This document shows positions 45,429 to 61,810 of a stretch of 64,000 nt of DNA, piece after piece. Every line of letters begins with the position of its first letter. Positions within the stretch are counted from its first letter, which is position 1. Below the pieces are notes generated by a model, which saw only the letters and a program-made list of their open reading frames with translations, searched no databases and was not told the DNA's origin. This DNA is from a candidate division NC10 bacterium CSP1-5 (lineage in GTDB: Bacteria; Methylomirabilota; Methylomirabilia; Methylomirabilales; CSP1-5). Position numbers and translations under genes: made by a program. The DNA lies in the NCBI GenBank assembly GCA_001443495.1, contig LDXR01000003.1, positions 63,129 to 127,128 on the forward strand, read 5' to 3'.

Positions 45429-48400
45429 CTAAGCCTTGACCAGCTTCACCTGCGTGTCGTAGAAGACGGCGCTCCCACCCGTGAGGTCCGACAGACACGT
45501 GTTCTTGAGTACCGGATCCACCCGCATGGCGGCGTTGGCATGAATCCCCTTGCTCCGGCGGGGATCCCCCTTGATGACCTTTCCGTCCACGACGACGTCA
45601 GAAGCCCCGTACGCCCAGTGGCCGTGGCCGAGGGAGAAGGCCACCACCCCCGGCCGGATCCCCTGGATTACCCGGAGCTTGCCGACCATGGGGCGCTTCC
45701 GGCCATTACCGAGGTCCCAGAGTCCCTCGGGGTTCGTGGCCGAAACAACCTTTACGGCTTCGCCGTCCTTGAGTCCCAGCCGCTTGGCGTCGCTCTCGTT
45801 GATGATCACCGAGTTCTCCGGGAGCAGGTGCAAGAGCCAGTAGTCGGCGACGGTCCGGGACTTGGTGTGGCTGATCTCCCGGAAGGTGATGAGGCGAAGG
45901 TCGTAGCCCGAATCTTCGATCGGCCGCCCCAGGCTGTCGAGCGGCGCCGGGATATACCTGGCGAGGCCCGGAAACGGCTTACCGGTCATCGCGTTCTTGG
46001 TCTTAGCGGTCTTCTCCTGGTAGAGATTGATGAGGGTGCCGTACTTGTTGGCGACTTTCTCGCTGTCGTAGGACTTCTCGTGATCCTGAAAGCGCCCGCC
46101 GCGATTCAGGACATAGATCGCCTTGCGCCACAGGGCGCTGCCGACGGTCCGCTCCCACCGGCCAGCATCGAAGACCGTCTTCGGGAGATGCCGCCGAGAG
46201 TTGAGGAAGAGCTTCACCTCCTCGTCGCTGGCATCCGGGACCTCGTCGCCGGACTTATCACCGAAGGCCACGTTCGCCACCATCCTGAGGTAGAGGTCCT
46301 CGGGACGCGTGAAGGGCTGACCTGGGCCAAAGCCGTCCGGCCCAAAGCCGGGCAGGCCGAGGCGCTCGGCGACGGCCAGCAGCAAGGCCTCGAGGGAGAT
46401 CGGCATCTTCTCGCCGAAGACCGTGACGGTCTCGGGGATGGGCGCGATGACGGGCTGCCGGACCGGCTGGATCTTCGGCGCCACCGAGGGGTGGCTGCCG
46501 TGAAACTCCCAACGCTCGAGGTAGGAAAGGTCCGGGAAGATGTAGTCGGCGTACATGGAGGTCTCGCCGATCAGGATGTCGTTGGCGACGACCAGCGGGA
46601 TCTTTTCGACGTCGGCGAGGATCGGGATATTGGTGTGCCCCGCTGGCAGGGCGTACACCGGCGAGCCCATGTAAAGAAAGAGGGCCTTGACCGGGTACGG
46701 GTAGGCATCGCCGATGGACGGGACGATCTCCTGATAGATGTCCGACGACAGCGGGAACCACGGGCGCTTCGCGGGATAACCGGCGAACAGCGTCGTCTCC
46801 TCATACTTCATGTCGTGACGGATTACGCTGATCCCGAAGGGGGCCATCTTTCCCGGCATCAGCGTGCCGATGGGGAAAGGCTGGCCTTCCCTGGCGCCGG
46901 CTGCGTTGTATGTAGTAGCCTTGATCATCCCCCCCTTCCAGTCATAGTTCCCGATGAGGAGGTTCAGCGAATACCAGGAGACAACATTGTAGTATCCGTT
47001 GGTGTGCTGGGAGACACCGCGGTGGATGTCGGCCGCGGCTTTCTTGCCGTGGCTCGTGAACTCCTGGGCCAGGTCTACCACGTCCCGCGGGCTGACCCCG
47101 GCGATCTCGGCCCATCCCTCGATCGTGTGGGCGTTGGCCGATTCGCGGAGGAGTTGCAGCCCGCTCTTCACCTTGATCCCCGCGAGCTCGGTGGTGACGA
47201 ACAGGTCCCCCTCGACGGCGCTCGCCTCGTCGTACGGATCCACGGCGAGCGGCTTCCCGTCTTTCAGGACGACGAAGAGGTCTTTTTCGGAGAGCCCGAG
47301 GTCTTTGGCGCGCAGAAAGGCCCCCGGTGTACCATCCTTCTCCAGCTTGACGAGCCAGGTGGCGTTGGTCCAGGTCGGTTCCCCGTCCGCCTTGGCGGCC
47401 GCCTTGTTGGCATTGGCAAGGAACCTGGCGTCATAGCGCTGCTGGTCGAGCACCCAGCGGATCAGGCCGAGGGCCAGGGCGCCCTCGGTGCCAGGCTTAT
47501 TGGGCAGCCAGCGCCAGGCTTTAGAGGCCGTCTTGGAAAAGCGGGGATCCACCACCGCAATCCGGAGGCGCCCGGAGGTCAGACCTTCCGTGATCTTCGG
47601 GATCCTGAGCGGCGGGCCGTAGTTGCCCTCGAGGGGCGAGGCCCCCACGAAGATGATGAACTCGGAATTGCCGGTGTCGGCCTGCCAGTAGAACTTGGCC
47701 CCGCCCGTCCACTTCCCCTCCTTGTACTGCTCGCTCATGGCCTTGCCGGAGAAGTAGAGGGAGCCCTGACAAACGGTAGTATGGCCATGGGCATTCACCG
47801 AGCCGAAGGCCTCCCGGGTGAAGCGGCTGATGAGGTCTCCGCGCCCCGCCTTGAGCCGCCCCCAGGCAAAGACGAACTGGTTGTTCCTCGGTCCCAGGTC
47901 GGGGTGCTCGGGATCGATAAGGAGGCCGAGGTGCTCGGCGTGCTTGGCCTTGAACTCGGCCACGGTCACCTTCTTCGACTGGACCGCCTTGGCATCCTCG
48001 GCGAGCGCCTTGGCGAGCTTGGGGTCGCGGAGGGCCCAGAGGTCCTTCAGGCCCTCGACCTTGCGCGTTTCCTCTCCAGGGACGTTCTTGAAGAGAACTC
48101 CGCCCTCCACGATCTCCTTGACTGCCTGGTCGAACGGGATCGACACCCACTTGTTCTCGCCCCGCTTGCCGGCCCGCTTCAGCACCTTGACGATTCGGTA
48201 GGGGTCATACGCGGTCTGGAGGCCCGCCTGGCCCTTCGGGCAGAGGATAGCATCGTAGGTGGCGGTGTCGAAGGGCGAGGTCTTGTACGGAAGATGCGGG
48301 GTCAGGTTCATCGGGTCGAAGGGATTGCCGTCGATCTTGACGACCACCCCGTCAACGATCTTGGCCTTGATGCCACATCCCGTGTTGCACTGGAGGCAGA

Positions 48401-48611
48401 CGGAGTACAGGATGTTTTCCGGCCTGGCCAGGGGGTAGGCAAAGTCGGCGGCGAGGGCCTGGCTCTCGGCCGTACCCATCATTTCCATCACCCGCTGGAG
48501 CTGACCGGCGAAGAGGGCTGATCCTCCCAGGAACGCCCCGGTCTTCAGAAAGCTCCGGCGGTCCAGCCACCAGGCCTGGCCGCCGTTTGAGGTCTCGCGC
48601 TCGCTCTTCAT
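45429..48611 (-). CDS. tetrathionate-reductase-type molybdoenzyme (TtrA-like), Tat-exported
   Basis: A 1,060-residue Mo-bisPGD enzyme with twin-arginine signal [20 protein letters not shown]. FeS ligands are Cys72, 75, 79 in [14 protein letters not shown] and Cys124 in [20 protein letters not shown]. The molybdenum ligand is probably Cys281 in [37 protein letters not shown], the size and the gene pairing fit the TtrA/ArrA/SrdA branch of the DMSO reductase family. Tetrathionate, arsenate/arsenite or selenate are possible substrates; I cannot choose. It is followed by the four-helix membrane protein rather than an NrfD anchor. Confidence 0.85.
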
Positions 48612-48626
48612 TGCTGCATCCTCCCC

Positions 48627-49415
48627 TTATCGGTGGCAGGCCAGACAGGCCTTGAGACTGTCCGCCGCCTGGGTGTCGTCCACGAGATAGTAGACGCGCG
48701 GGCCGGTCTTGAGCGCGGCCTGCATCGTTATGCTCTGGTGCGTGCGCAGCAGCTTCGAGACCAGGCTCTCGGGATCGTTGAGGTCGCCGAAGAACATGAC
48801 GCCCCCGTCGCACGTCGTGACGCAGGCCGGGAGCATTCCCGCGTTGAGGCGGTGCAGGCAGAAGTGACACTTGCGTGCTGTTCCGATGGGCAGAGCGCCC
48901 GTTGTCCTTACCCAGGCCTTCTCGTACTCGAACGTCGGCGCCTTTTCGTAGAGCTGGGGCGCCGGCGTCCCCTGGCTGTAGAAGCGGCCGTCGTCGAAGG
49001 AAAAGGCGTTGTACGGACACGCCTTCGAGACCCGTTCGAAGATCTCCTTTCCCTTGAGCTTGCCGTAATGCAGGGCCACGATGCCGTCGGGGCGCCTCGT
49101 GATGGCCCCCAACGGCGCAGCCTTCATGCACGGGGGGTTCTCACAGTGCATGCAGTTGGTCGGCATAAAGGTACGCGCCACCTGGGGGTATTCCCCCGAT
49201 TCCACCTCGCCCACCCGCCGGTAGGCGACGCCAGGCGGCGAGCCGTTCTCGGCCATACAGGCCACGACGCAGGCATAACAGCCTGTGCACCGCTTGGTGT
49301 TGATGACCATGACCCAGCGGCGTTGCTCCACCGGTTTCTTAAGCGCCCGGCGGAGATCCTCGCGCATGCGGGTCAGCTCCTCTCCTCGCGTGGACATCGG
49401 GGTCGGCACAATCAT
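48627..49415 (-). CDS. TtrB-like FeS subunit with degenerate cluster motifs and C-terminal CXXCH
   Basis: Starts MIVPTPMSTRGEELTRMRED at 49415 behind GGAGGGAGGACG. Of the usual four cysteine motifs, I (CTGCYACVVAC) and IV (CHFCLHRLNAGMLPACVTTC) are complete. Motif II is CMHCENPPCMKAA with the fourth Cys replaced by Ala. Motif III keeps only the last Cys (ERVSKACPYNAF). One or two clusters are therefore lost or altered. The protein ends LKACLACHR, a CXXCH-type haem motif three residues from the end. It precedes TtrA by 15 bases. Whether haem is attached is unknown. Confidence 0.85.
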   Translation of the reverse strand: MIVPTPMSTRGEELTRMREDLRRALKKPVEQRRWVMVINTKRCTGCYACVVACMAENGSPPGVAYRRVGEVESGEYPQVARTFMPTNCMHCENPPCMKAAPLGAITRRPDGIVALHYGKLKGKEIFERVSKACPYNAFSFDDGRFYSQGTPAPQLYEKAPTFEYEKAWVRTTGALPIGTARKCHFCLHRLNAGMLPACVTTCDGGVMFFGDLNDPESLVSKLLRTHQSITMQAALKTGPRVYYLVDDTQAADSLKACLACHR

Positions 49416-49682
49416 CGTCCTCCCTCCACTCGGCTGGGCGTTTCCTGCTCCCACCACACGGCATTCCCGAACATGGAGCTGGCCCGGTTCCCTGGGGCGC
49501 CCGAGCCATCGGGCTGGCTAGAGGATCACTCCCCTAACCGTCGCGTCCATCCCGCCCACAGGGGATCGGGATGGCTCGGAGATTTCCCTTTGCTGTCAAC
49601 CCCAGTGCTGCTCTTCCCGCGCGAGTCCTCACCCCAGAGATCAGAGCCTATCTCGATCCCGATCCCTTACCACGAGCGAAGC

Positions 49683-49702
49683 AATATGATCCCTGTCATA
49701 TT
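49683..49702. promoter_or_regulatory. CRP/FNR-family-like palindrome
   Basis: AATATGA-N6-TCATATT is a perfect 7-bp inverted repeat with six central bases, and its TGA-N6-TCA core resembles the CRP-type TGTGA-N6-TCACA. It lies about 270 bases before the ttrB start. The regulator is not identified. Confidence 0.5.
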
Positions 49703-49749
49703 TCTTCCTGTTGTGGTCCTGATTTTCATCACAACCTGCTGGATTTCGA

Positions 49750-49765
49750 AGCAAGGCAAATACCA
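49750..49765 (-). promoter_or_regulatory. possible sigma-54 promoter
   Basis: On minus, TGGTATTTGCCTTGCT has GG-N10-GC spacing and a perfect TTGCT -12 box but only a partial -24 box. It would give a leader of about 320 bases to ttrB, so support is moderate. Confidence 0.35.
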
Positions 49766-49935
49766 CACGGAGGCCACCGGACTCTTGATCCGCTAATTGA
49801 CCAATTCTTCAGACAAATCGGACCATGGGGGTACAGGATCCGGGAAAGGCTCGTGAGACAGCGATGCCTCACCGGGGTCGGGAACGCCTACGTCGCAAGG
49901 TGAAGAAAGCCGCACTAGAAGAGCACACGAGCGGG

Positions 49936-49955
49936 ATGGGGCAACTCTGCCCCAT
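49936..49955 (-). terminator. hairpin after mtrB (possible terminator)
   Basis: A perfect 8-bp stem ATGGGGCA/TGCCCCAT with a 4-nt loop lies about 135 bases past the mtrB stop. There is no T run after it, so it may act as an mRNA-stabilising or factor-dependent end. Confidence 0.45.
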
Positions 49956-50088
49956 ATGGCGAGGATGTCTCAAGCGTGGGGAAGAGTGTTGGGCAGAAGC
50001 TCGGGGGAGTGATCAGCCTAGAGCGAAAATCATCCCGCCGGCGAGAGGCAAGCGTCAACCAAGCCAGGGGACGCGGAGGATCCCGGGA

Positions 50089-52362
50089 CTAGAACCGGTA
50101 AATGAGGCTCAGGGCAAAGATGTGCGCATGAAAATCCTGCTGCCGATCTCCCAGGAAAACGTCGTTGGATGGAGAAATCACCCCAGAGCCGTTGATGTTC
50201 GAGAAGGGCATGAAGGGGTCCAGCCCGTCCGTCTTGAAATTGTCCTGCAGGAAGACCTCGAACCGATACTCGAACTTGGCGGTAAGGTTTTTCAGGACGT
50301 GGTATCGGAGGGCCGCGGCGACGGTATGCAGGGTGTCTTTGATGTCCGGGTAGTCCACCGCGTTGCCGCCGTCACTGGCTGGGCTCGTCGCCCCGGGGCT
50401 GCCGCTCGCACTGGTCTGCCCCCTGGCCGCCTGCACGACGTAGGAGAGGCTCAGGTCCAAGAGATTCTTGATGAGGGCGATGTCCGCCCCGGCCCCCGCA
50501 GTATGGATCAAATCCTGGGAGGTGCTCACCCAGTCGTTCACCGGATCGTCCACGGCGACGCCACCGACCACGGACCGAAAGCGCTGGCTCTGGTTGAACT
50601 CGATCAACTCGAAGGTGTACCAGGTCGAGAGGGTGAGCCATTCCAGAGGAGTGTAGCTCACATCGAAGCCCGCACTCCACCGCTCGTCGTCGGTCAGTCC
50701 CAGGGTGGTATCGTGGTAATCACTCCGACCGTAGCCAGCGTTAAACGCCAGCGTAAGATCCTCGCGGGGGGTGAGCTGGGCAAGGAGGCTCACCTGGTGG
50801 CGGATGCGGTTCGCCTGATCGTACTTCCGGAGGAGGATGGATTGGGACGTCAACTCCGCAGCCGCGAGTTCCTCCTCTAGGACGGCGTGCGCCAGATGGG
50901 CAAAGGTGTTGTAGGAGCTGCCCTGCTTGAAGCCAACATTATAGCCCGCCCGCAACAGCGCCCAGTTGGCCGGACGATAATCCACCCCGAATTTTGCGAT
51001 GTGCTCATTCGTGTGCTCCACCTCACGGTGGCTGCTCCGGTCCCAGCGCTCAAATTCGTAGCCGGCTTTCACCGTGGTCGGTCGAGCCACCCGGTACGAG
51101 ACGTCCACTCCCGCGTTGTGAACTGTGTGATCGCTCGGGGTCGTAAAGCGCGTATCCACGACGAGCGACTGGTCGTTGAGGACGTGGGCCGGGAAGGCGA
51201 CGATACCAGTCTTGTCGGTATAGTCGTACATCCGGTAGCGGGTCGTCACGTTCCAGTCGGGGTGCGGCCGACCCGTAAGGAGCAGATTCGCCAAGATGGT
51301 ATGCACCTCGCCGTCGAGGTCGTTCTGGGGAAGAGCCAAAAGGGGGCTGACGATGGCCGAATTGATGGTATGAGGCAGGAACCCGTCGTCCTGGAACCGC
51401 AAGCCGTACGAGAACGTCCCCGCGAAGCGGGCCGGGAAACCAACCGGAAGCGTCGTCGCGCCGGAGAGCCGGAAGGTGTGGGCCGAGCTATCCGGGGCCG
51501 TGGATGTCCGACCGCGACTCGTAGCGGTGGCAATATCCGTCGCCCGCAAGGGGTTGTCGACCGTGATTGACTCGAGCTCATCGTTATAGAAAGACCCGAT
51601 GTAGTCCAGTCGGATATTCCAGGTGTCTCGGGCCAGCTCGACCCCCGCCGTGACCTCGTGCGTCTGGTCATCAATCGGCGCAGCTACGTTGACGAACGTG
51701 CCTCCGGGACTGCCAAAAACCATGCCGAACGGTCGCGTCCCGTCCTTGTCCTGGATCCGGTAGCCGGCGTTCAACTCGACGTCGGCGAGCGGCCGGTAAA
51801 AGAATTCCGCCCGGCCCGACTTCTGCTCGAACTCAAGGGGGACCGTCTGCGCCCCGGAGAGCGCCCCCCCGAGGATAGCAGCTCGGGCCGCCGCAGTCGC
51901 GGCCCCTTGAAGCGCCGCCTGTGTGGCGTCGGGGAAATCCAGGACGCTTCCTGTCCGCGTGTAGAGCGACCTCGCCGTGTTGCTGAACTGGTGAGGCATT
52001 TCGTCGTACTCCAGCTCCAGACGATACCGGCCGTAGCGACCGATCCGAGCCTCGTAGTGCTGGTCTCCCTCGGCGATGTCGGTCGCCGAACCCGAGAAGA
52101 AGTACTTCCCCTCCTTCCCCTCGATGAGGAAGTTGACGCTTCCGAAGAACCCCGTGTCGAGGTCCCGGTACGTTTCGAATTTTGAGGAACTGGTGTCCCC
52201 GGTGACCAGCCGCCCCCCGAATTCAGCCTCCCCGCTCAGCGTCGCAGTGCCCAGGTCCATCTCTGCCTGCGCCACGAGGGGGCCTGCGAGCAGCAGGCCC
52301 GAAACCGCAGCCAAGTGAAGGCCCGCAAGAAATCCTCTCAGCACCCTCTGAGATGCTTTCAT
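50089..52362 (-). CDS. mtrB: MtrB/PioB-family outer-membrane beta-barrel
   Basis: Starts MKASQRVLRGFLAGLHLAAV at 52362 with a signal peptide ending AQAEMDLG. The 757-residue protein consists of alternating amphipathic beta strands with many aromatic girdle residues and ends in ALSLIYRF, a typical barrel-closing Phe. Large periplasmic-turn and extracellular-loop segments fit a 26-28-strand barrel like MtrB/PioB. It sheathes the decahaem MtrA, whose gene is ten bases upstream. No CxxC near the N-terminus, seen in some Shewanella MtrB proteins, is present here. Confidence 0.88.
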   Translation of the reverse strand: MKASQRVLRGFLAGLHLAAVSGLLLAGPLVAQAEMDLGTATLSGEAEFGGRLVTGDTSSSKFETYRDLDTGFFGSVNFLIEGKEGKYFFSGSATDIAEGDQHYEARIGRYGRYRLELEYDEMPHQFSNTARSLYTRTGSVLDFPDATQAALQGAATAAARAAILGGALSGAQTVPLEFEQKSGRAEFFYRPLADVELNAGYRIQDKDGTRPFGMVFGSPGGTFVNVAAPIDDQTHEVTAGVELARDTWNIRLDYIGSFYNDELESITVDNPLRATDIATATSRGRTSTAPDSSAHTFRLSGATTLPVGFPARFAGTFSYGLRFQDDGFLPHTINSAIVSPLLALPQNDLDGEVHTILANLLLTGRPHPDWNVTTRYRMYDYTDKTGIVAFPAHVLNDQSLVVDTRFTTPSDHTVHNAGVDVSYRVARPTTVKAGYEFERWDRSSHREVEHTNEHIAKFGVDYRPANWALLRAGYNVGFKQGSSYNTFAHLAHAVLEEELAAAELTSQSILLRKYDQANRIRHQVSLLAQLTPREDLTLAFNAGYGRSDYHDTTLGLTDDERWSAGFDVSYTPLEWLTLSTWYTFELIEFNQSQRFRSVVGGVAVDDPVNDWVSTSQDLIHTAGAGADIALIKNLLDLSLSYVVQAARGQTSASGSPGATSPASDGGNAVDYPDIKDTLHTVAAALRYHVLKNLTAKFEYRFEVFLQDNFKTDGLDPFMPFSNINGSGVISPSNDVFLGDRQQDFHAHIFALSLIYRF

Positions 52363-52372
52363 GGCAGCCTCC

Positions 52373-53332
52373 TTACCGGGTGAAGGCGAATCCGGACGGG
52401 TGGTTGGAGCCGTGGATGTTCGCGTGACACTGGACACAGGCCCGGCCGATGACAAGCTTGTTGGTCGGCAGCCGGGCCTCGGTCGGGTGGCGACTTTCGA
52501 TGTGGCACTGCTGGCAGAGGCGCGGCAGCGAGAGCTTCAGCATCTTTTCCCGGACTCCGCCGTGCGGGTCATGGCAGTTCGCGCAGCTCTCGAGGACCGG
52601 CGGGTGCTCCCACAAGAATGGGCCCCGCTTGTCGGCGTGGCACTTATAACAGTTGTCGTTGATGGAATTCTCCGGCAGGAGCGATTTCGTGATAGTCCCG
52701 TGTGGGTTGTGGCACGAGGTGCAGGTCATCTTCCCCTCGCGCAGAGGCATATGGGCGTTACGGTAGATCTGCGAGCGCCGGACCAAGTGACACTGGGCAC
52801 ACACCTCTACCACTTCGGCCTTGGCCAGCTGGAAGCGGTCCGAGACCTTTTCCATCACCTTGTGGCAGTTCGTGCAGGCCACGTCCCGGCCTTCGTGGGG
52901 ACTGCCCTGCCAGTAGGTACGCTTGCCCTTCTCATGACAGGTGAGGCAGACGGCGTTCTCCCTTTCAATGGCCTCGGGGGTCTCCCGCCGGAAGGCGACC
53001 AGATCGCCGACCCCCTTCCCCCCGCCGGCATCGGCGTGGACCTTGCCCGGACCATGGCAGGCCTCGCAGCCACGTAACATCAGGGGGGTCCGGGCGTTCG
53101 CCTCGGTGAAGACTTTCGCGTGAATGGTCTTATTGAATTTGTCCTTGACGTCGTGGCACTGCAGGCAGGTCTCGGAGCCGACGTAGGCGTTGCCGGTCTC
53201 GGGCGGCGACGCCTTGGCGGGGGGTTCGGCGGCGATGGAAACGGAAGGAGGGAGAGCAAGAGACGAAGGCCAGACTAAGAGAGCCAACGCAATCAGGGGA
53301 CCTGCGGCGATCACCACGCGCGTCACTCTCAC
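52373..53332 (-). CDS. mtrA: decahaem cytochrome c, MtrA/PioA/DmsE family
   Basis: A 319-residue periplasmic protein with a signal peptide and ten CXXCH motifs (CLQCH, CEACH, CLTCH, CTNCH, CAQCH, CTSCH, CYKCH, CANCH, CQQCH, CVQCH). It has the family segments SCHNPHGTITKSLL and the C-terminal CHANIHGSNHPSGFAF. MtrA-type proteins form a haem wire inside the MtrB barrel and carry electrons across the outer membrane. A GTG start at 53332 is used. No outer-surface MtrC-like cytochrome is in the window. The pair sits next to a quinol-oxidising cytochrome cluster. Confidence 0.94.
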   Translation of the reverse strand: MRVTRVVIAAGPLIALALLVWPSSLALPPSVSIAAEPPAKASPPETGNAYVGSETCLQCHDVKDKFNKTIHAKVFTEANARTPLMLRGCEACHGPGKVHADAGGGKGVGDLVAFRRETPEAIERENAVCLTCHEKGKRTYWQGSPHEGRDVACTNCHKVMEKVSDRFQLAKAEVVEVCAQCHLVRRSQIYRNAHMPLREGKMTCTSCHNPHGTITKSLLPENSINDNCYKCHADKRGPFLWEHPPVLESCANCHDPHGGVREKMLKLSLPRLCQQCHIESRHPTEARLPTNKLVIGRACVQCHANIHGSNHPSGFAFTR

Positions 53333-53638
53333 GGCGCCCCCGTTCGACGATGGGAGGTCATTTTAGTCTGGGCGACAATCCCCCCAGATGGGAGCGAACA
53401 CAGCTCTGGCCTGATCTTGCACAGCAACCTATTCACGGATCGATGCGCGGTCAATGACGGCGATCATAGTAATTGCATGATCTTCGTCGCCTTCCTAGGC
53501 CGGTTGTCGGAAATAAGCCGTAAAATCAATAGATAACATGGGGTTCATGATGACTAACACAGTTCTATTTTTCGTGTCAAGCAATAGTATTCCGGCTACC
53601 CCGGCGGTTTTCCCATTAATTGCTATCGGAAGCTACGC
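53333..53638. other. intergenic region before mtrA
   Basis: About 300 bases, more AT-rich than the surroundings. It contains a TTGACA box and an inverted repeat CTGGG/CCCAG at 53368-53387, near the mtrA start. No gene is visible; it is the likely promoter of mtrAB. Confidence 0.5.
53552..53580 (-). promoter_or_regulatory. candidate sigma-70-type promoter
   Basis: On minus, a perfect TTGACA (53575-53580) is followed after 17 bases by TTAGTC, a poor -10 match. It points toward mtrA about 220 bases away. The -35 box is convincing, the whole site less so. Confidence 0.35.
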
Positions 53639-54475
53639 TTAGAAGTCTTGCGGAAACTCCGACAGTTCGCCAATCCGCTTCAAGGAAAGGACCCCTTCGT
53701 AGCGCGCCCCTTTGATGAACCAGGTGGGGTAGACCTTGATGGCGAGTTGTTGGCAGCGGGCGGGGTCCGCACCCGGGATCTTGGGATCGCACTCGACATA
53801 GGGGATGAGATCCGCCGCGGGCCCGAACCGGGCCTTCTGTTCGCCGCAGGCGGGTCACCAATAGGCGCCGTACATGACGGCACCGCTTTTGGCCAGATGG
53901 CGAGCCAGCGCTTCCTGATACGCGGCGCTCCCCCCCGGGCCAGCGGCATAGTACCCGGCCCCCACGAGGACGGTGGCCACGGCCGCCACGGTCCCGAGCG
54001 TGGCGACCCGGGACGGACGGACGGCGGACCTCCGCCCCGGCACCGACCGTCGCCGGGAGAGGAGGACCGCGAGGAGGACCAAGATGATCAGCGCGGACAT
54101 GACGCAGTACCCGCAGATGGCGCGGATCTCGAACAGCTCGAGATACGTGAGATAGGCGGAGAAGGACACCCCCACGACCGACAGGAGGAAGGCGGCCAGC
54201 CATCGCCCCGTATCAAGTCCCAAGAGGGCCAGCGCGCCGATGCCTGCATACACGAGGGCGCCCCAGAGAGCTGTCGGCACCCCGAAGAAGACGCCATACC
54301 GGCTGGCCTGGACGATGTCGCAGCCGCTTCCGGCCTCACAGAAGAGGGGACTCTCGGCGCCGAGCTTTGTCACCGTGAGATAGCCGGCGAGGAGGAATCC
54401 GAGAGCGGCCAGCCCCGCGACCACCCAGTCGCGCTGCACCGCCTCGGATGTCTTTTGTCGTTGAGACCGCGCCAC
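53639..54475 (-). CDS. VKOR-thioredoxin fusion with in-frame UGA (candidate selenocysteine)
   Basis: Reading through one UGA gives a 278-residue protein. Residues 1-150 are a VKOR domain: helices, FCEAGSGCDIVQASRY (paired Cys) and the active-site ICGYCVMSA. After a helix and linker, a thioredoxin-like domain reads GAVMYGAYW-UGA-PACGEQKARFG, then LIPYVECDPKIPGADPARCQ and LAIKVYPTWFIKGARYEGVL, ending at TAA 53639. Known VKOR-Trx proteins have YWCPHC at this place, so codon 207 (53857-53855) replaces the first Cys and the second Cys remains (UPAC). A SECIS-like hairpin follows. VKOR oxidises periplasmic dithiols using quinone; the gene sits among c-type cytochromes that need disulfide management. 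UGA is the normal stop elsewhere here, so no code change. A nonsense mutation cannot be excluded. Confidence 0.75.
53820..53834 (-). promoter_or_regulatory. candidate bacterial SECIS hairpin
   Basis: On minus, GGCCCG-GTT-CGGGCC forms a perfect 6-bp stem with a 3-nt loop beginning with G. The loop begins 26 bases after the UGA. Bacterial SECIS rules (stem within the reading frame, G among the first loop bases, loop about 16-37 bases from UGA) are met. The stem also encodes the conserved ARFGP, so function is not certain. Confidence 0.6.
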
Positions 54476-54493
54476 GTCCTCCGCTCCTTTCCT

Positions 54494-55954
54494 TCAAGGC
54501 GCCGCAGCCCGGGCCATGGCCTCCTCGGCCTTCCGGCGAGCGACCTCGAGGAGCGCCTCCGCCGCGGTCGGGTTGTGGGCGCCCCGTGCGCCTTTGACCA
54601 GGTCGAGCGCGGCACGCGCCTCTTTCACCAGGCCTTCTGCCGCCGGCTTCTTGGCTCCGGCACCACGGGCTTTCCCCAGGGCGGCCTCGGCCCGCTGAAG
54701 CACCTTGGCCGCCTCAGCGACGGCTGCATCAAGCCCGCTGGTCCACTCGTCCATGAACGCCAGGTAACCCGGGTCGTGGCACGCCAGGCACTTCTGGCCA
54801 ACCACCTTCCGAGAGTGCTTCTTGGTGAAATCGTGACAGCCCGTGCAACTGACCGCCGCGGCCATGACGTTCGGCTCGACGGCCACGAGGTCCGTTTTCG
54901 TCTCGCCCCGATAGAAGGCCGCCTGGGCCCGGTGACAGGACTCGCACCGTTCGTTCTGCGGGCTGTGATGGCAGGACGTACACGTCGCCGGCGTCGCCGT
55001 GACCGCTTTGTGAACCTCGGCCGAGTGACAGTTCGTGCACACCGCACCGAACTCGGCCACATGCCGGCCGTGCGGGACTTTCTGTTTGGCGAAGCTGACC
55101 GTCTCCGGCAGCTTCACCCCAGCCTGCTCGTGGCACAGGACACCGCAGTAGCCTCCGCGGACGAGCGTATCATCGCCCGTGACCGGCGCCCCGCCGAGGA
55201 GGCGGACGGCGTCATCGAGCCAACCGTTTGCCACCTTGAGGAGGTCCGCCGCGTAGAAGACATTGTGCACGCCTTTCGCGAGGGCGACAAACTGGAGATT
55301 GTGCTCGGCGTCGTCGACGAGCTGTTGCGCCCGCGCCAACTGCGGGTGCTTCGGGTCGGCCTTCACCAGCGCCGCCCGCGCCCCTGCCAGTTTTGGGGCA
55401 AGGAGGTCCCGCATCTTGCTCAGGGTCTCCACCCATCGCGTGAGCATCCCGCGGTACTTCTCGCCGTGGCAGTTGAGGCACGCCTGCTCGGTCGGCCGGA
55501 ACGTCTGACCCACGATCCCTGCCGCCGGTTCGGCTTCCTTCGGCACGATGTGGCAGGCGACGCACTCCACGCGGACCTGGAACATGTGGCTTGGGATCAT
55601 CGGAGTCCCACGCCCCCCCGTGCCGAGATACATCTGGAGGACCCCGTGGTGTTTCCCCACGTGGCAGTTGCTGCAGTCCAGTTCCCCAGGGCGGTGTCGC
55701 TTCTCCGGCGGGGTCACCTCGCCTCGATCCGCCGGGGTGATGGGCTTGAGCCCAGGATGCTGGGATGCAAGCACGGGCCGTCCGAGGACTGGGGACGGCT
55801 CGACTGAGGCCTCGACGGTGAGCTCGGCCGAACCGCCCGCCGAAGCCTGAGGACTAAGGATGGATGAAATGGGGCGTGATTCCTCCGCGTAAACGGCTGG
55901 AACGGTAGCGCCGAACAGAAGCCCCAGCGCGGCGATGCGGATCCCCAGGGTCAT
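54494..55954 (-). CDS. multihaem cytochrome c (8 CXXCH plus CX3CH)
   Basis: Starts MTLGIRIAALGLLFGATVPA (signal peptide) at 55954, overlapping the NapC-like gene by ATGA. Motifs: CSNCH, CVACH, CLNCH, then CGVLCH (three residues between), CTNCH, CTSCH, CESCH, CTGCH, CLACH. Between the third and fourth sites lies a helical segment with AEHNLQFVALAKGVHNVFYA, like the helix-bundle region of some octahaem and nitrite-reductase-like cytochromes. After the last haem a long Ala/Lys-rich coiled coil runs to the end. It may dock with the NapC-like quinol dehydrogenase. Catalytic activity unknown. Confidence 0.88.
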   Translation of the reverse strand: MTLGIRIAALGLLFGATVPAVYAEESRPISSILSPQASAGGSAELTVEASVEPSPVLGRPVLASQHPGLKPITPADRGEVTPPEKRHRPGELDCSNCHVGKHHGVLQMYLGTGGRGTPMIPSHMFQVRVECVACHIVPKEAEPAAGIVGQTFRPTEQACLNCHGEKYRGMLTRWVETLSKMRDLLAPKLAGARAALVKADPKHPQLARAQQLVDDAEHNLQFVALAKGVHNVFYAADLLKVANGWLDDAVRLLGGAPVTGDDTLVRGGYCGVLCHEQAGVKLPETVSFAKQKVPHGRHVAEFGAVCTNCHSAEVHKAVTATPATCTSCHHSPQNERCESCHRAQAAFYRGETKTDLVAVEPNVMAAAVSCTGCHDFTKKHSRKVVGQKCLACHDPGYLAFMDEWTSGLDAAVAEAAKVLQRAEAALGKARGAGAKKPAAEGLVKEARAALDLVKGARGAHNPTAAEALLEVARRKAEEAMARAAAP

Positions 55955-56877
55955 CGGGCACCCTCCGTGGCCCGCACGACCAGGGAAGGCCGGTCCACGT
56001 CGCGGACCGCCCTCGGGATGCCGATCAGCGGCGGCAGCCGGTGCTTGATCTCGCTGTGGCAGCGGGCACACTCAATATTGTGCCCGGCGACGTGAAAGTC
56101 GTGGATGAATTCCGTGTCCCCGTAGCGCTCGAGCTTCTCCGGTTGATTATGGCACGTGAAGCAGCGGTCGCGCGGCGCCTCGCCGTCGCCCTCGATGACG
56201 TTCAGGTGGCACTTCGTACAGGCGACGCCTCGGCGCACCATCTCCTCATGGTTGAACCGTATCGAGCCGACCACGATGTCGCCCTGCGGCGCCCCATGAC
56301 ACCCGGTGCAGCCGGCGATGGGCTTCAGCTCCCGTCCGATCTTCATCCCCTTGAAGTGGCAGAGGAAGCAGGTGGATTCCGTCACCTCGATGTGGGTCCC
56401 CACGACGATCTGGGAGTGACAGCTCGTGCACCGGAGCTGCCGCCCGCGGCGGATCTCCTCGAGGTGGGGGCGGTGATCAAAGATGATCCCCCGTTTGAAC
56501 ACCACCTTGCCCTCTAAGAGTCGCCGCTCATGACAACCCGAGCGCAGGCAACTCGCATCCTCGATCTCGGCGAACGGCTTGGAGCTATACGTCTGCGTGG
56601 CCCACTTCGCCACCTGGGCCAGTGCCTGGTACTTGACCCAGAGCGAGTCCCGGAAACCCGGCGGGTAATGACACTCAACACACGACACCATGTTGTGCTT
56701 GGAGGTCCTCCACGCCTCCACGTACGGCGTCATGATGTGACAGGAGCTACAGAGCAGCGGGCTCGAGCTCACCTTGTAGAGGCCGACGAGGACGGCAAAG
56801 CCGACCACGAACAAGGTGGTGAGGCCGATCAGGAGGGCGCGCCGCCGCCCGGGACGCTTCGCTGGTTGTTCATTCAC
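55951..56877 (-). CDS. NapC/NirT-like multihaem quinol dehydrogenase (8 CXXCH plus CX4CH)
   Basis: A 308-residue protein with an N-terminal membrane helix (ALLIGLTTLFVVGFAVLVGL) and the NapC-type start SSSPLLCSSCHIMTPYVEAW, SKHNMVSCVECHYPPG. Nine sites: CSSCH, CVECH, CLRSGCH (four between), CTSCH, CFLCH, CTGCH, CTKCH, CFTCH, CARCH. The first four sites are the usual NapC/CymA domain; the rest extend it. Such proteins oxidise menaquinol and pass electrons to periplasmic cytochromes. It starts 22 bases after the cytochrome b gene and overlaps the following multihaem gene. Confidence 0.9.
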   Translation of the reverse strand: MNEQPAKRPGRRRALLIGLTTLFVVGFAVLVGLYKVSSSPLLCSSCHIMTPYVEAWRTSKHNMVSCVECHYPPGFRDSLWVKYQALAQVAKWATQTYSSKPFAEIEDASCLRSGCHERRLLEGKVVFKRGIIFDHRPHLEEIRRGRQLRCTSCHSQIVVGTHIEVTESTCFLCHFKGMKIGRELKPIAGCTGCHGAPQGDIVVGSIRFNHEEMVRRGVACTKCHLNVIEGDGEAPRDRCFTCHNQPEKLERYGDTEFIHDFHVAGHNIECARCHSEIKHRLPPLIGIPRAVRDVDRPSLVVRATEGAR

Positions 56878-56898
56878 GTCGTCTCCTCCGCCCGTGCG

Positions 56899-57726
56899 TC
56901 ACTCGCTCAAGAAGGCGAGAAGGGTCAGGCCGAGCAACAGGAAGCCGATCCCAATGGCGCTGAACCCGAGGATCCGCCCGAAGTTCCGGAGCCAGAGGGG
57001 CGGGGGATCGGCCCGGACCGCGTCGAGGCGCCCGGCTCCCGCGAGACGCTCGTACTCCGCCGGGCGCGATTCCTTGAGCTCGTCCAGACTCTCTCGCCCG
57101 GTAAAGATGACGAGGTCAATGGGAAATCGATCAGGCCGCAGATGGCTGTTGAAGAAATGGATGGCAAAGATGAACCAAACGGCCAGCAGCGCTTCGTCGG
57201 CGTGGATCAGGAGGGCGAAGTTGAAGAGCCACCCGGGCAGGATCTGTCCGAAGAAGCCCGAGAACCACATCACGTATCCCGTGGTCCCGATGATCGCCAT
57301 CCCCCAGAAGACGGCCCAGTAGTCGAACTTCTCCCAGTAGCTGAAGCGTCCGAAGCGAGGCTTGGCGCCAGTGCCGAAGAACCATTTGAAGTGCTGGGTG
57401 AGGTCCAGGAAGTCCTTAGGCTGCGGCACCATCGAGGTCGGCCCCCAGAAGACCCCGATCTCTCCCCTGACAAAGGCCAGGTGAAAGACATGCCCGAGAT
57501 GAACCAGGAAGCAGAGAGTCAGCAGAATGGCGAAGGTTTTGTGGAAAAAGAGGATCGCCCCAAACCCCCCGATGGCGTGCGCAAAGCCGATGGCCCAGGC
57601 CGCCTGGTTGAACCGGAGCGGCATCCCCGTGGCCGCGAGCCCCAAAAAGCTCGTCATCAGGACGCCGTGCAGAATCCGGTGGAAGAGGTGCAGGCGAAAA
57701 TAGTACTGCCGAGATTGATCAATCAT
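56899..57726 (-). CDS. membrane cytochrome b (b561/FdhI-like)
   Basis: A 275-residue membrane protein with about five helices. Histidines in LHLFHRILHGVLM, GFAHAIGG, FFHKTFAILLTLCFLVHLGH and LIHADEALLAVWFIFAIHFF fit two haem b groups. Proteins of this type oxidise or reduce quinone together with multihaem partners. It overlaps the tridecahaem gene by eight bases, so a b/c pair similar to the Cbc quinone oxidoreductases of Geobacter is likely. Confidence 0.88.
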   Translation of the reverse strand: MIDQSRQYYFRLHLFHRILHGVLMTSFLGLAATGMPLRFNQAAWAIGFAHAIGGFGAILFFHKTFAILLTLCFLVHLGHVFHLAFVRGEIGVFWGPTSMVPQPKDFLDLTQHFKWFFGTGAKPRFGRFSYWEKFDYWAVFWGMAIIGTTGYVMWFSGFFGQILPGWLFNFALLIHADEALLAVWFIFAIHFFNSHLRPDRFPIDLVIFTGRESLDELKESRPAEYERLAGAGRLDAVRADPPPLWLRNFGRILGFSAIGIGFLLLGLTLLAFLSE

Positions 57727-59176
57727 CGCGCGGTCCCTCGGGCGGCCTCCTCGCCTTGCCCATCTCGATCACCGAACGGGTCAGCCACAGGGATGTGTGC
57801 AGGCCGAAAAAGGTAAAGACCCCGATCATGAGGAAATTCATGAAGCGAGCGGTGTAGTAGAGGCCCGGATTCCGGCTCCTGTCCTTCGGGTCGGCATGAG
57901 GGGAGTATTGGACGAAATTCTCGTTCGCCTTGGGATGACACTTTTGGCACGTGGTGACGCGGTTCCCCGGTGCGATGGAGGACTTGGGATCCGAGGCGGG
58001 GAGAATCTGGTGCGAGCCATGGCAATCCGAGCAACGGGCCACCCGCGCGAACCCCAATCCCGACACCTGCCCGTGGAAGGTATCGCGGTAGGTCCGGAGC
58101 GATTCGCCATGACAGGTGCCACACTCCTGGATGATTTCCAATTTCCACGCTACCGTCTCGACGCGGGTGATCTGATGGGCCGTGTGACAGTCGACGCAGA
58201 CAGGGGCCGCCCCCTTCCCTGCCCGGACCGCCTTCCCGTGGACGCTTTCGGCGTAGTCCTTCAGCGCCCCCGCGTGACAGGCCCCGCAGGTGGATGGGAC
58301 GTTCGTCCGGTGCACCCTCGAGGCGGGATCTTCCTTGGACCTGACACCATGAAAGCCGTGACAGCTCGAGCAGTTGGCCGCCACCAAGAGCCCGCTCCGA
58401 GCGAGGGCCCGGCCGTGGATCGAGTCCATGTAGAGCTGATAGGCGTTCGCCACCGGAATCCCGTGCCGTTTGGCCAGTTCGGGATCGCCGTGACAGGCCC
58501 CACAGGTCCGCGGGAGGTTCAGGGGATACACCGGTGATCCCGGATCGCGGACCTTTTTCAACTCGTGGGCCGAGCCGTGACAGGTGTGGCACTGGGCCAC
58601 CTCCCGTTCTCCCCTGGCCAGGGCCCGGCCGTGGACGCTCTGGTCGTATTCATGAACGACGGCCCGGTGGCAGGCCTTGCAGATCGCGGTCTCCGTCTCC
58701 TTCGCCCGGTGGATCGCATGCGAGCCGTGACAGGTGGCGCATGCCAGCCCCTTTTTCCGGTCGAGGGTATGAGCCCCAGAGACGGCGACGTCGTGGCAAC
58801 TCTGGCATCGGACCTTTTTCAGGCTCTCGGGGTGGGGGACTTCGGTGGCATCGGCGTGACACTGAACACACTCCAGGGCACCGTGCGCCGATCCCTGGAG
58901 GAGGGCCTGATCGACGAAGAGAGCAATCGACCGTCCTGCCGGCCCCTCCTTGGTCAGCGTTCGATCGCTGTGGCAGGCGAGGCAGTCCTCGGAGGAAGGC
59001 AGGGACTGCGCCGCAACGGCCGGCAGGATCCCCGCCAGGACGACCAGGGCAAATACAAGGACGCCGCCGAGGGGATTCCCTCCTCGTGATACGGCCGCAG
59101 GGCTGAAGCCGGAAGGGACGTTGGGCTGCTCCTGAAGACGGCTACCCCTCACTTCTTGACATGGCACTTGCTGCAA
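57719..59176 (-). CDS. tridecahaem cytochrome c with C-terminal membrane anchor
   Basis: A 485-residue protein with export signal (VLVFALVVLAGILPAVAAQ) and thirteen CXXCH motifs, from CLACH near residue 65 to CQKCH near 420. Repeats of SVHGRALARG-type spacing with CxACHxD/G are visible; this is a mosaic of doubled class III units. A helix near the end (FLMIGVFTFFGLHTSLWL) anchors it to the inner membrane. The start at 59176 gives a long leader; a shorter start inside is possible. It overlaps the triheme gene by 28 bases and the cytochrome b gene by eight. Confidence 0.9.
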   Translation of the reverse strand: MQQVPCQEVRGSRLQEQPNVPSGFSPAAVSRGGNPLGGVLVFALVVLAGILPAVAAQSLPSSEDCLACHSDRTLTKEGPAGRSIALFVDQALLQGSAHGALECVQCHADATEVPHPESLKKVRCQSCHDVAVSGAHTLDRKKGLACATCHGSHAIHRAKETETAICKACHRAVVHEYDQSVHGRALARGEREVAQCHTCHGSAHELKKVRDPGSPVYPLNLPRTCGACHGDPELAKRHGIPVANAYQLYMDSIHGRALARSGLLVAANCSSCHGFHGVRSKEDPASRVHRTNVPSTCGACHAGALKDYAESVHGKAVRAGKGAAPVCVDCHTAHQITRVETVAWKLEIIQECGTCHGESLRTYRDTFHGQVSGLGFARVARCSDCHGSHQILPASDPKSSIAPGNRVTTCQKCHPKANENFVQYSPHADPKDRSRNPGLYYTARFMNFLMIGVFTFFGLHTSLWLTRSVIEMGKARRPPEGPRDD

Positions 59177-59496
59177 TTCGCCTGGTCTTTCACGGTGAAG
59201 GCCGTCTTGCCGTCATGACAGGCGCCGCACAACTTCCCCTCGCCCATGGCCGCCATGGTGAATGGTCCGGTCTTCCCTTTCTTCATCTGGAAGACCTTGG
59301 TGTGGCAGACGGTGCATTTCTCCGCCTTTTCCTTGTGCTTCTCGTGGCTGAAGGTGACCGGTCCAGGACTGTCCTTGCCCTGCTCAAAGGTGAAGTCCGC
59401 GGGAGGCTTGACCTGCGCAGCCGCAGGGACCATGACGGCCAGCGCGATCCCGAGCCCGATGGCCAACGCGACACTCCCAACGCCGGCGCTTCGCAT
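59149..59496 (-). CDS. small trihaem cytochrome c (c7/c3-like)
   Basis: Starts MRSAGVGSVALAIGLGIALA at 59496 with a signal peptide. The 115-residue protein has CTVCH, CGACH and CSKCH with PVTFSHEKHKEKAEKCTVCH, typical of PpcA/c7-like periplasmic shuttles. A soluble carrier between inner-membrane complexes and MtrA is a sensible role. Its last codons overlap the tridecahaem gene. Confidence 0.9.
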   Translation of the reverse strand: MRSAGVGSVALAIGLGIALAVMVPAAAQVKPPADFTFEQGKDSPGPVTFSHEKHKEKAEKCTVCHTKVFQMKKGKTGPFTMAAMGEGKLCGACHDGKTAFTVKDQANCSKCHVKK

Positions 59497-59520
59497 CGTT
59501 CCCTCCTCCAACGTCCGTGG

Positions 59521-60144
59521 TTACGGGGATGGTGCAGCAACGCTCTTCAGAAAACCGAACAGGTTCGCCATCTCCTCGCCCGTGAAGCGAGGGTAGAGTA
59601 CACCGATCTGGGCCGCCTGTCTAGCCATCCGCGGGGAATGATTCCAGATGCCGGTCGCCCAAACCACAGGAGAATCGTAGCCGCCGGTGTACGTCGTCAG
59701 CTCGATTCCATGCGTCCCCCCTTCCCCCCGAAGCCGGTGGCACTTGAGACACCCTTTCCGGACCAGGGTCGCCTGCCCCGCAGAGAGATTTGGGGCAGGA
59801 TCTCTGGTCGGATCGGCCTGAAGATACACCATCAGATCGTCCATCTCGGGTGCGCTGATCGCCGGCCACTCAAGCTTCTGCCATTCGAGGACCCCGAGCA
59901 TCGCCGGGGCGTGGTTCCACAGGCGGCCGGCCAGCTCGAGCATCCCCTGGCGACGACGCAGCTCCTCCAGCGGCGGCCCAAGAGCACGCTCTCCCCGGGG
60001 CTTGTGGCAGCGCGCGCACTCCTTGCTCGTAAACAGCACCCGTCCCCGCTCGTCATCGCCCCGGCGTTCGGCAGCCGTCGGTCCCGCAACGGCCAGGGCA
60101 CCACCCACGAGGAGAATCGCGGCGAGAAGCTGCCTCGCGCTCAT
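59521..60144 (-). CDS. dihaem cytochrome c subunit of the b6/Rieske complex
   Basis: A 207-residue exported protein ([20 protein letters not shown]) with CARCH and CLKCH, each followed by a WNHxPxM sequence ([16 protein letters not shown]) and a closing helix. It belongs to the same domain family as the tetrahaem proteins. Its ATG overlaps the cytochrome b stop (ATGA), so it is probably the c1/f-like subunit. Confidence 0.88.
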
Positions 60145-61238
60145 TGCGTCGCCACCTCGGTGTAGCCAAGGTAGGTTAGCACGATCATGTAGACAATGAC
60201 CATGATCCCGATCATGGTGAAGAGGTGGCTCGGCTCACCCCGGGCCGTCCGCCGATCGAGGAACGGGACGAGGAGCAGGAAGAGGCCACCGAGGCCGAAG
60301 CCGATGACGCCGACGATCTCACCCTCGATGCCAAGGATCGAGGCCGGGAGGTATTTGAGCGTCTTGAACATGAACATGAAGTACCACTCTGGCTTGATGC
60401 CGACCGGCGCCGACGCGAACGGATCGGCTTTCTGGCCGAGCTCCGCCGGGTAGTAGGCGGCCAGGGCGGCCAGGATCGCCAACGCGGAGAGCCACCCCAC
60501 CAGATCGCGCAGCAGGAAATTCGGCACGAACGGCATGACGCGCCTCGCGGCCTGGTGCCCCTCGACATTCGGGGGGACGCTCATGCCGTGCCGCTGCACC
60601 AGAAAGAGGTGCAGACCCAGGAGGAAGACGGTCAGGGCCGGCAGGATGGCGACGTGAATCCCGTAGAATCGCGTGAGAGTCGCCCCCGTCACCTCGTCGC
60701 CACCCCGGAGGAGGCGGCCAAGAAACGAGCCGACCACGGGAACGGCCCCCGTAATTTCGGTCCCGACTTTCGTGGCGAAGTATGCCAGCTCATTCCACGG
60801 CAAGAGATACCCGGTAAAGCCGAAGCCCAGGGCTAGCCCCAGCAGCCCCATGCCAGACAGCCAGGTGAGTTCTCGCGGCGGGCGGTACGCCTTGAGGAGC
60901 CACACGCTGAAGAGGTGGACGAAGAGGGTGAAGATCATCAGGTTCGCCGCCCAGGAGTGGATCGAGCGGATGAGCCAGCCGAACTGGACCTCGGCCATCA
61001 GGAACTGGACCGATTCGTAGGCCTCCTCGGCGCTGGGGCGGTAGTAGAGGAGCAGGAGAATGCCCGTGGTCACCTGGACCATCAAGAGGAAAAGGGTCAT
61101 CCCGCCCAGGTAGTACCAGATCGAATGCCGGTGGACCGGGACCTCCTTCTTCCGGGCGAGCTTCGCCAGGTCGGCGAGGCCAATCCGCTCATCGAGCCAC
61201 TGCCACACTCCCCACTGTCGTCGGTCAGGCGTTGCCAT
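60141..61238 (-). CDS. cytochrome b6-type cytochrome b
   Basis: A 365-residue protein with about eight helices. Haem ligands are in the [15 protein letters not shown] helix (13 residues between His) and the [16 protein letters not shown] helix (14 between), a b6-like spacing. The Qo motif PEWY is in [14 protein letters not shown]. The cytochrome b6-like N-part and subunit-IV-like C-part are one chain. It oxidises quinol and is encoded with the Rieske protein three bases upstream. Confidence 0.94.
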
Positions 61239-61240
61239 GT

Positions 61241-61699
61241 TCAGGCACCTTTGCTAATCACAATCTGCTCCCCCCGCACGTTAACGACGTACTGGTCCAG
61301 CGGCCTCGGGGGCGGGCCGGCGATGTTCTGGCCATTGAGGTCGAAGTGCCCGTTATGGCAGGCGCACCAGATATGGGTCAGGTCGGAGCGGTACTGCACC
61401 GTGCAATTGAGGTGGGTGCAGACCGCCGAGAAAGCCCGCAGTTCCCCCGCCGGCGTCCGAATCAGGATGGCCGGACGATTGCCAAACTTGAAGATCTGCC
61501 CCGAGTTCGGTTTCACGTCGGCCAACTTGATCGGGAGTGTGACCGATGCCGCCGTGGACTCTCCGGCCTGCGGGGGGATCAGGTACCGCGCGATCGGGTA
61601 CAGGACCGAGAGGAAAAAGGCGCCTGCACTCGTTGCGAGGAACCAGTTGATGAACTTCCGGCGGCTCGCGTCTCGGGCCAACACCTGTTCAGTCATCAT
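61241..61699 (-). CDS. Rieske iron-sulfur protein
   Basis: A 152-residue protein with an N-terminal anchor ([20 protein letters not shown], probably a Tat-type or uncleaved signal), then the 2Fe-2S ligands CTHLNC and CACHNGHFD. The proline loop [10 protein letters not shown] is intact. It is the high-potential subunit of the quinol:cytochrome c complex. Confidence 0.95.
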
Positions 61700-61707
61700 T
61701 CCCTCCG

Positions 61708-61742
61708 GTTCAGGGTTCAGAGTTCGTAGTTCACAGTTCGTA
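61708..61742. repeat. heptamer tandem array, GTTCNNN type
   Basis: Five 7-nt units (GTTCAGG, GTTCAGA, GTTCGTA, GTTCACA, GTTCGTA) between the nonahaem and Rieske genes. The first unit equals that at 32662. Confidence 0.7.
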
Positions 61743-61768
61743 GATGTCCGAAGTCCAGCTTATGGGTA

Positions 61769-61783
61769 TTGGGTGACACCCAA
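61769..61783. other. hairpin between nonahaem and Rieske genes
   Basis: TTGGGT-GAC-ACCCAA is a perfect 6-bp stem, extended imperfectly on both sides. It may stabilise or attenuate the mRNA between the two genes; no T tract follows. Confidence 0.45.
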
Positions 61784-61810
61784 GACCTAATACGCGACAG
61801 CGGTCGTCGG

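Follow-up and report, generated by a model that had tools for sequence, protein, structure and literature searches.

The gene and its surroundings

The window, the whole stretch of DNA analysed here, comprises 64,000 nucleotides from the candidate division NC10 bacterium CSP1-5 (Methylomirabilota). On its minus strand lies a gene for a VKOR-thioredoxin fusion (53639..54475) that, translated with TGA as U, has a GTG start, 278 residues, a predicted selenocysteine (Sec) at position 207 and a TAA stop codon (53639-53641). A Shine-Dalgarno-like GGAGGA (54477..54482), read directly on the same strand, stands 1 nt upstream of the GTG. The frame that opens at 54475 meets TGA at codon 207 (53855..53857) and then runs on through 71 open codons, and this TGA occupies the exact place of the first Cys in the thioredoxin CxxC motif (UPAC). 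Translation confirmed these features, which had been given in a preliminary description made from the sequence alone, and the in-frame UGA within the VKOR-thioredoxin gene is real. From the comparison of homologues at this codon, we take the UGA to be read as Sec within WUPAC.

Two multiheme cytochrome genes flank the fusion gene on the minus strand. The one directly upstream encodes an octaheme cytochrome (54494..56071, 8 CXXCH motifs), the one downstream encodes a decaheme cytochrome (52373..53332, 10 CXXCH motifs), and both are also neighbours of the gene in several relatives. The surrounding redox locus (45429-63070, minus strand) includes a molybdopterin oxidoreductase, an Fe-S protein, an MtrB/PioB porin, a cytochrome b/b6, a Rieske-like protein and several multiheme cytochromes (8, 8, 10, 13 and 9 CXXCH motifs), among them one of NapC/NirT type. 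The gene adjoins a large cytochrome c locus, as first described, and by its predicted gene content this locus resembles an extracellular electron-transfer conduit.

Domain architecture and predicted structure

The N-terminal part of the read-through product is a VKOR membrane domain (residues 17-137, 54065..54427 on the minus strand; Pfam PF07884, E=1.7e-26) with a loop Cys pair, Cys46 and Cys52, and a membrane CxxC, Cys121 and Cys124. The C-terminal part is a thioredoxin-like domain (residues 189-276, 53648..53911 on the minus strand; alignment to 3kp8, E=5e-24), in which U replaces the first C of the CxxC and which also carries Cys229 and Cys241. The resolving Cys210 of the UPAC motif (53846..53848, minus strand) is encoded by TGC in 50/50 Sec sequences. 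An alignment with the VKOR-thioredoxin fusion of Synechococcus (PDB 4nv2/3kp9) covers residues 17-276 of the product (E=3e-45) and pairs UGA 207 with the first Cys in the CPHC of that protein. Eight redox positions, namely Cys46, 52, 121 and 124, Sec207, and Cys210, 229 and 241, are invariant among the homologues. An AlphaFold model built from 36 Sec homologues had a mean pLDDT of 89 and matched the Synechococcus VKOR structures 3kp9/4nv5/4nv6 in Foldseek (E about 1e-15), and its thioredoxin domain matched the isolated domain 3kp8.

Capacity of the genome to decode selenocysteine

We searched the source genome for the genes of Sec decoding, as the preliminary description had proposed, and all of them are present: a tRNA-Sec with anticodon UCA (74.3 bits), selA (600 bits), selB (379 bits) and selD (404 bits). 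The selD gene (contig C13:29194-30120) itself has one in-frame TGA, in the classical motif HGAGUACK, and is predicted to encode a Sec-containing SelD. This gene serves as an internal positive control for Sec decoding. Judged from these genes, the machinery is complete and the source genome is able to decode Sec. Across the phylum Methylomirabilota, tRNA-Sec was detected in 79/95 genomes and selB in 83/95, over curated cut-offs. TGA also terminates 8 of the 13 genes neighbouring the fusion gene, so UGA does function as a stop, as had been stated for this region.

A hairpin downstream of the UGA

A candidate bacterial SECIS upper stem-loop, GGCCCG-GTT-CGGGCC (53820..53834, minus strand), follows the UGA, with a 6-bp stem, the loop GTT, a spacing of 26 nt from UGA to loop and a folding energy of -10.3 kcal/mol. 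Its geometry and energy fall within the published bSECIS model, for which the energy cut-off is -7.5 kcal/mol (PMC13188914). This part of the preliminary description, which had reported a 6-bp hairpin with a G-first 3-nt loop 26 bases after the UGA, stood up, but as a single sequence the hairpin is weak evidence. In a synonymous-codon null, 7.6% of the reshuffles were as good (p = 0.076), and in dinucleotide shuffles 14/200 folded as well (z = -1.5), so that it is only mildly unusual and not significant. One-sequence statistics were therefore dropped as proof of a SECIS (p about 0.08), and synonymous constraint at the level of the family was used as evidence instead. A search of the region against Rfam gave no match to a SECIS family.

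At the family level, all six pairs of GGCCCG-GTT-CGGGCC are kept in 21/21 Methylomirabilota Sec genes (gapless count). The codons GCC CGG TTC GGG are fixed in all 21, even though Ala, Arg and Gly have four or six codons each. Sec genes of other phyla have a different hairpin, of the type GAACAGA-AGNN-TCTGTTC, with the loop after 19 nt and all seven pairs present in 29/29 sequences; one of them, L062, shows a compensatory change from G-C to A-U on both sides of the stem. This second type has bSECIS geometry, and its isolated stem mostly folds at -6.8 to -7.0 kcal/mol, just short of the -7.5 cut-off. Fixed codons were concentrated in the hairpin relative to the rest of the gene in both Sec groups (6/9 vs 5/84, p=0.002, in one; 4/6 vs 2/98, p=1e-4, in the other), whereas Cys genes showed no codon fixation at the hairpin position (0/6, p=0.5). 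The joint conservation of the UGA and of a hairpin over 50 homologues is far beyond chance.

Distribution of the UGA and Cys forms

Of the 95 Methylomirabilota genomes, 21 have the gene in a form that shares the single TGA at this codon and is 49-70% identical. Outside this phylum we found 27 further distinct UGA genes, in Nitrospirota, Desulfobacterota, SAR324 and others, so that the same UGA, followed by an intact frame, is shared by about 48 distinct genes of several phyla; counted as sequences, TGA stands at the codon 207 position in the 21 from Methylomirabilota and in 29 others. Cysteine codons (TGC/TGT) occupy the position in 22 homologues, and the Synechococcus VKOR likewise has Cys. 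By organism name, the Sec loci belong with confidence to Methylomirabilota, Nitrospirota and Desulfobacterota, to which SAR324 and two records assigned to Myxococcota by taxonomy are added. On these assignments, the Sec form appears to be present in at least three phyla, and probably in five.

The motif YGAxWUPxC was scanned across 84,980 species genomes, a pattern search that is biased to this one motif, and it returned 68 loci. Among them were 25 full-length VKOR-thioredoxin genes outside Methylomirabilota/Rokubacteria, including one in Malonomonas rubra DSM 5091 (Desulfobacterota). A selB gene was found in 23 of the 24 non-Methylomirabilota genomes with a UGA gene that were checked vs 2 of 14 control genomes. 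In a survey of 396 Nitrospirota genomes, 11 genes had the UGA and 25 had no stop at all; 19 of these 25 were checked, and all 19 have Cys. The gene is rare in the phylum of Malonomonas, with three UGA genes and one without a stop among 395 genomes.

Selection and phylogeny

Beyond codon +16 after the UGA, dN/dS was 0.40, vs 0.43 before it, which indicates that purifying selection downstream of the UGA equals that upstream. Both the UGA/Cys exchange at codon 207 and the continued conservation after it, which the preliminary description had proposed to look for, are seen in the alignment of homologues.

A maximum-likelihood tree of the family resolved two deep, well-supported clades, on which no fewer than two changes between Sec and Cys are required. 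One Methylomirabilota gene (G069) was placed within the Sec clade of that phylum, has TGT at the Sec codon (CPHC) and lacks the hairpin of the clade; it is a probable reversion from Sec to Cys. Two genomes of the source genus (G010 and G012) have a more distant Cys VKOR-thioredoxin gene that groups with the Nitrospirota-type clade. Since these genes sit in the other clade, they do not represent an in-place conversion of the Sec gene, and their position suggests gene replacement or horizontal transfer. The two unrelated hairpins would fit two origins of Sec and a replacement of the SECIS alike, and the tree favours neither.

Decoding of the UGA and putative function

We consider it very probable, at roughly 0.93, that the gene encodes a selenoprotein in which UGA 207 is read as Sec. 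The UPAC motif proposed at the outset is supported by the conserved UGA, the exchange with Cys, the sel genes and the hairpin. Were the UGA an ordinary stop, the product would be a VKOR-only protein and the thioredoxin part a decaying or separate remnant. The use of UGA as the terminator of 8/13 neighbouring genes agrees with such a stop, but the intact frame behind the UGA in about 48 genes of several phyla, the equal dN/dS on its two sides and the fact that Cys, and no other residue, replaces it in homologues make this highly improbable. Reading of the UGA as another amino acid, through a code change (Trp, for example) or leaky suppression, accounts for the open frame and for nothing beyond it. 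It is contradicted by the neighbours that use UGA as a real stop, by Cys as the aligned residue, by the presence of tRNA-Sec, selA, selB and a UGA-containing selD in the genome, and by a hairpin maintained by selection, and its probability is close to negligible. A third possibility accepts Sec and makes UGA 207 a selenium-dependent switch, with the full VKOR-thioredoxin protein formed when selenium is available and a VKOR-only form, needing another thioredoxin partner, when it is not. The VKOR domain ends well ahead of the UGA, so termination there would leave a complete membrane enzyme, and VKOR proteins without a thioredoxin domain are common and functional (PMC12453122). Truncation is, however, a general possibility for any selenoprotein, and a stable or used short form is purely hypothetical; we regard such a switch as rather improbable.

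With UGA 207 read as Sec, SelB with Sec-tRNA would decode the codon under the direction of the hairpin just downstream. The predicted selenoprotein would then combine a quinone-linked VKOR membrane domain with a thioredoxin-like domain in the periplasm that has Sec-Pro-Ala-Cys as its active site. By homology with the Synechococcus VKOR, Sec207-Cys210, oxidised to a selenenylsulfide, would oxidise the thiols of exported proteins and be re-oxidised through the Cys46/Cys52 loop and Cys121/Cys124, from which electrons would pass to quinone. As the nucleophile, Sec may allow faster exchange and easier recovery of the site after over-oxidation. The preliminary description had instead proposed that Sec raises the rate of reduction of the periplasmic partner. 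Characterised bacterial VKOR homologues normally oxidise their thioredoxin-fold partner and donate the electrons to quinone (PMC4555120, PMC12453122), so the predicted effect is better described as an acceleration of thiol/selenol-disulfide exchange within an oxidative pathway. The same property of these homologues leads us to favour a quinone-coupled route to disulfide formation in which Sec is the nucleophile of the exchange, and by this analogy the protein is likely to act as an oxidase in quinone-linked periplasmic disulfide formation.

The protein could, alternatively, have as its main task the reduction or isomerisation of the haem-binding CXXCH thiols in multiheme cytochromes, and not the general oxidative formation of disulfides. 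Its gene is placed directly between those for the octaheme and the decaheme cytochrome, with the MtrB/PioB porin nearby, and a multiheme cytochrome occurs within about 2 kb in 11 of the 21 Methylomirabilota Sec loci. A selenenylsulfide is, moreover, harder to reduce than a disulfide, a property by which Sec would favour a more reducing site. Against this stand the direction of electron flow in the characterised homologues, from the thioredoxin domain to quinone with oxidation of substrates (PMC4555120, PMC12453122), and the intactness of every VKOR cysteine needed for the electron relay. A DsbA-like gene also adjoins the gene in Malonomonas, and other phyla lack cytochromes near it. We judge a mainly reducing or isomerising role unlikely and return to the oxidase as the preferred reading.

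In Methylomirabilota, where the gene often has an octaheme cytochrome on one side and a decaheme one on the other, the genomic context suggests that the oxidase would probably handle thiols while multiheme c-type cytochromes, or the proteins that partner them, are made. Outside this phylum, a multiheme cytochrome was found at one Sec locus only, some 4-6 kb off. With 11/21 loci in Methylomirabilota and none adjoining the gene elsewhere, this functional reading is limited to the clade and is inferred, and the idea that the Methylomirabilota copy is tied to cytochrome biogenesis is tentative, at a little under even odds. A cytochrome association as a trait of the whole family was rejected, as it is confined to Methylomirabilota. 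Somewhat more doubtful is a wider scenario in which Sec was gained at least twice (or two unrelated SECIS were kept) at the catalytic nucleophile of VKOR-thioredoxin proteins, giving selenium-dependent oxidative protein folding across several environmental phyla that, in one clade, is dedicated to multiheme cytochromes and the machinery of extracellular electron transfer. A DsbA-like gene lies directly upstream of the Sec gene in Malonomonas rubra (L091:1-507) and in a Desulfuromonadales MAG (L112); as a general feature this neighbour was rejected, for it is confined to these two related Desulfuromonadales loci.

Relation to known proteins

The closest described system, the Synechococcus sp. 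VKOR-thioredoxin fusion (PDB 3kp9, 4nv2, 4nv5, 4nv6; 3kp8), shares the two-domain architecture and all redox cysteines; it has CPHC, whereas the protein of the window has UPAC, with Sec for Cys, and a SECIS hairpin inside the coding sequence. The Cys VKOR-thioredoxin genes of Nitrospirota and some Methylomirabilota (L138-L156, L057, L020, L021) are homologous over their full length and have the same cysteines, but they carry TGC/TGT at the Sec position, lack a conserved hairpin and are free in their synonymous codons. When public gene calls take UGA as a stop, proteins of the Sec form would be cut just ahead of the catalytic motif.

VKOR is absent from a 2026 inventory of 119 prokaryotic selenoprotein families/subfamilies (PMC13188914), in agreement with the earlier remark that no Sec-containing VKOR had been described. 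NCBIfam has general VKOR models only and none for the Sec form. A full-text literature search did not find the Sec form either, although the groundwater selenoproteome or other earlier surveys may already list the family; the groundwater study is cited as predicting 63 selenoprotein genes in one Methylomirabilota MAG (PMC13188914). The DsbA-like (PF01323) and DsbG-like Sec families of the inventory have in common with the present protein a UxxC in a thioredoxin fold, thiol-disulfide chemistry and a probable location in the cell envelope, but the inventory describes no member of them as a fusion with a VKOR quinone-reductase domain. SaoT and other thioredoxin-like selenoproteins likewise have Sec at the first CxxC position and belong to other families, without a VKOR domain (PMC13188914 Table 1). 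On this comparison we regard the gene as defining a new selenoprotein family, the predicted Sec variant of a known enzyme, which would add to the 119 of the inventory. Sec would here belong to the very enzyme that couples disulfide formation to quinone, for which the literature searched offered no earlier case.

The pattern scan also returned four other thioredoxin-like proteins with an in-frame TGA in WUPxC, from Verrucomicrobia and Bacillota (L076, L106, L108, L126), which are possible further selenoproteins.
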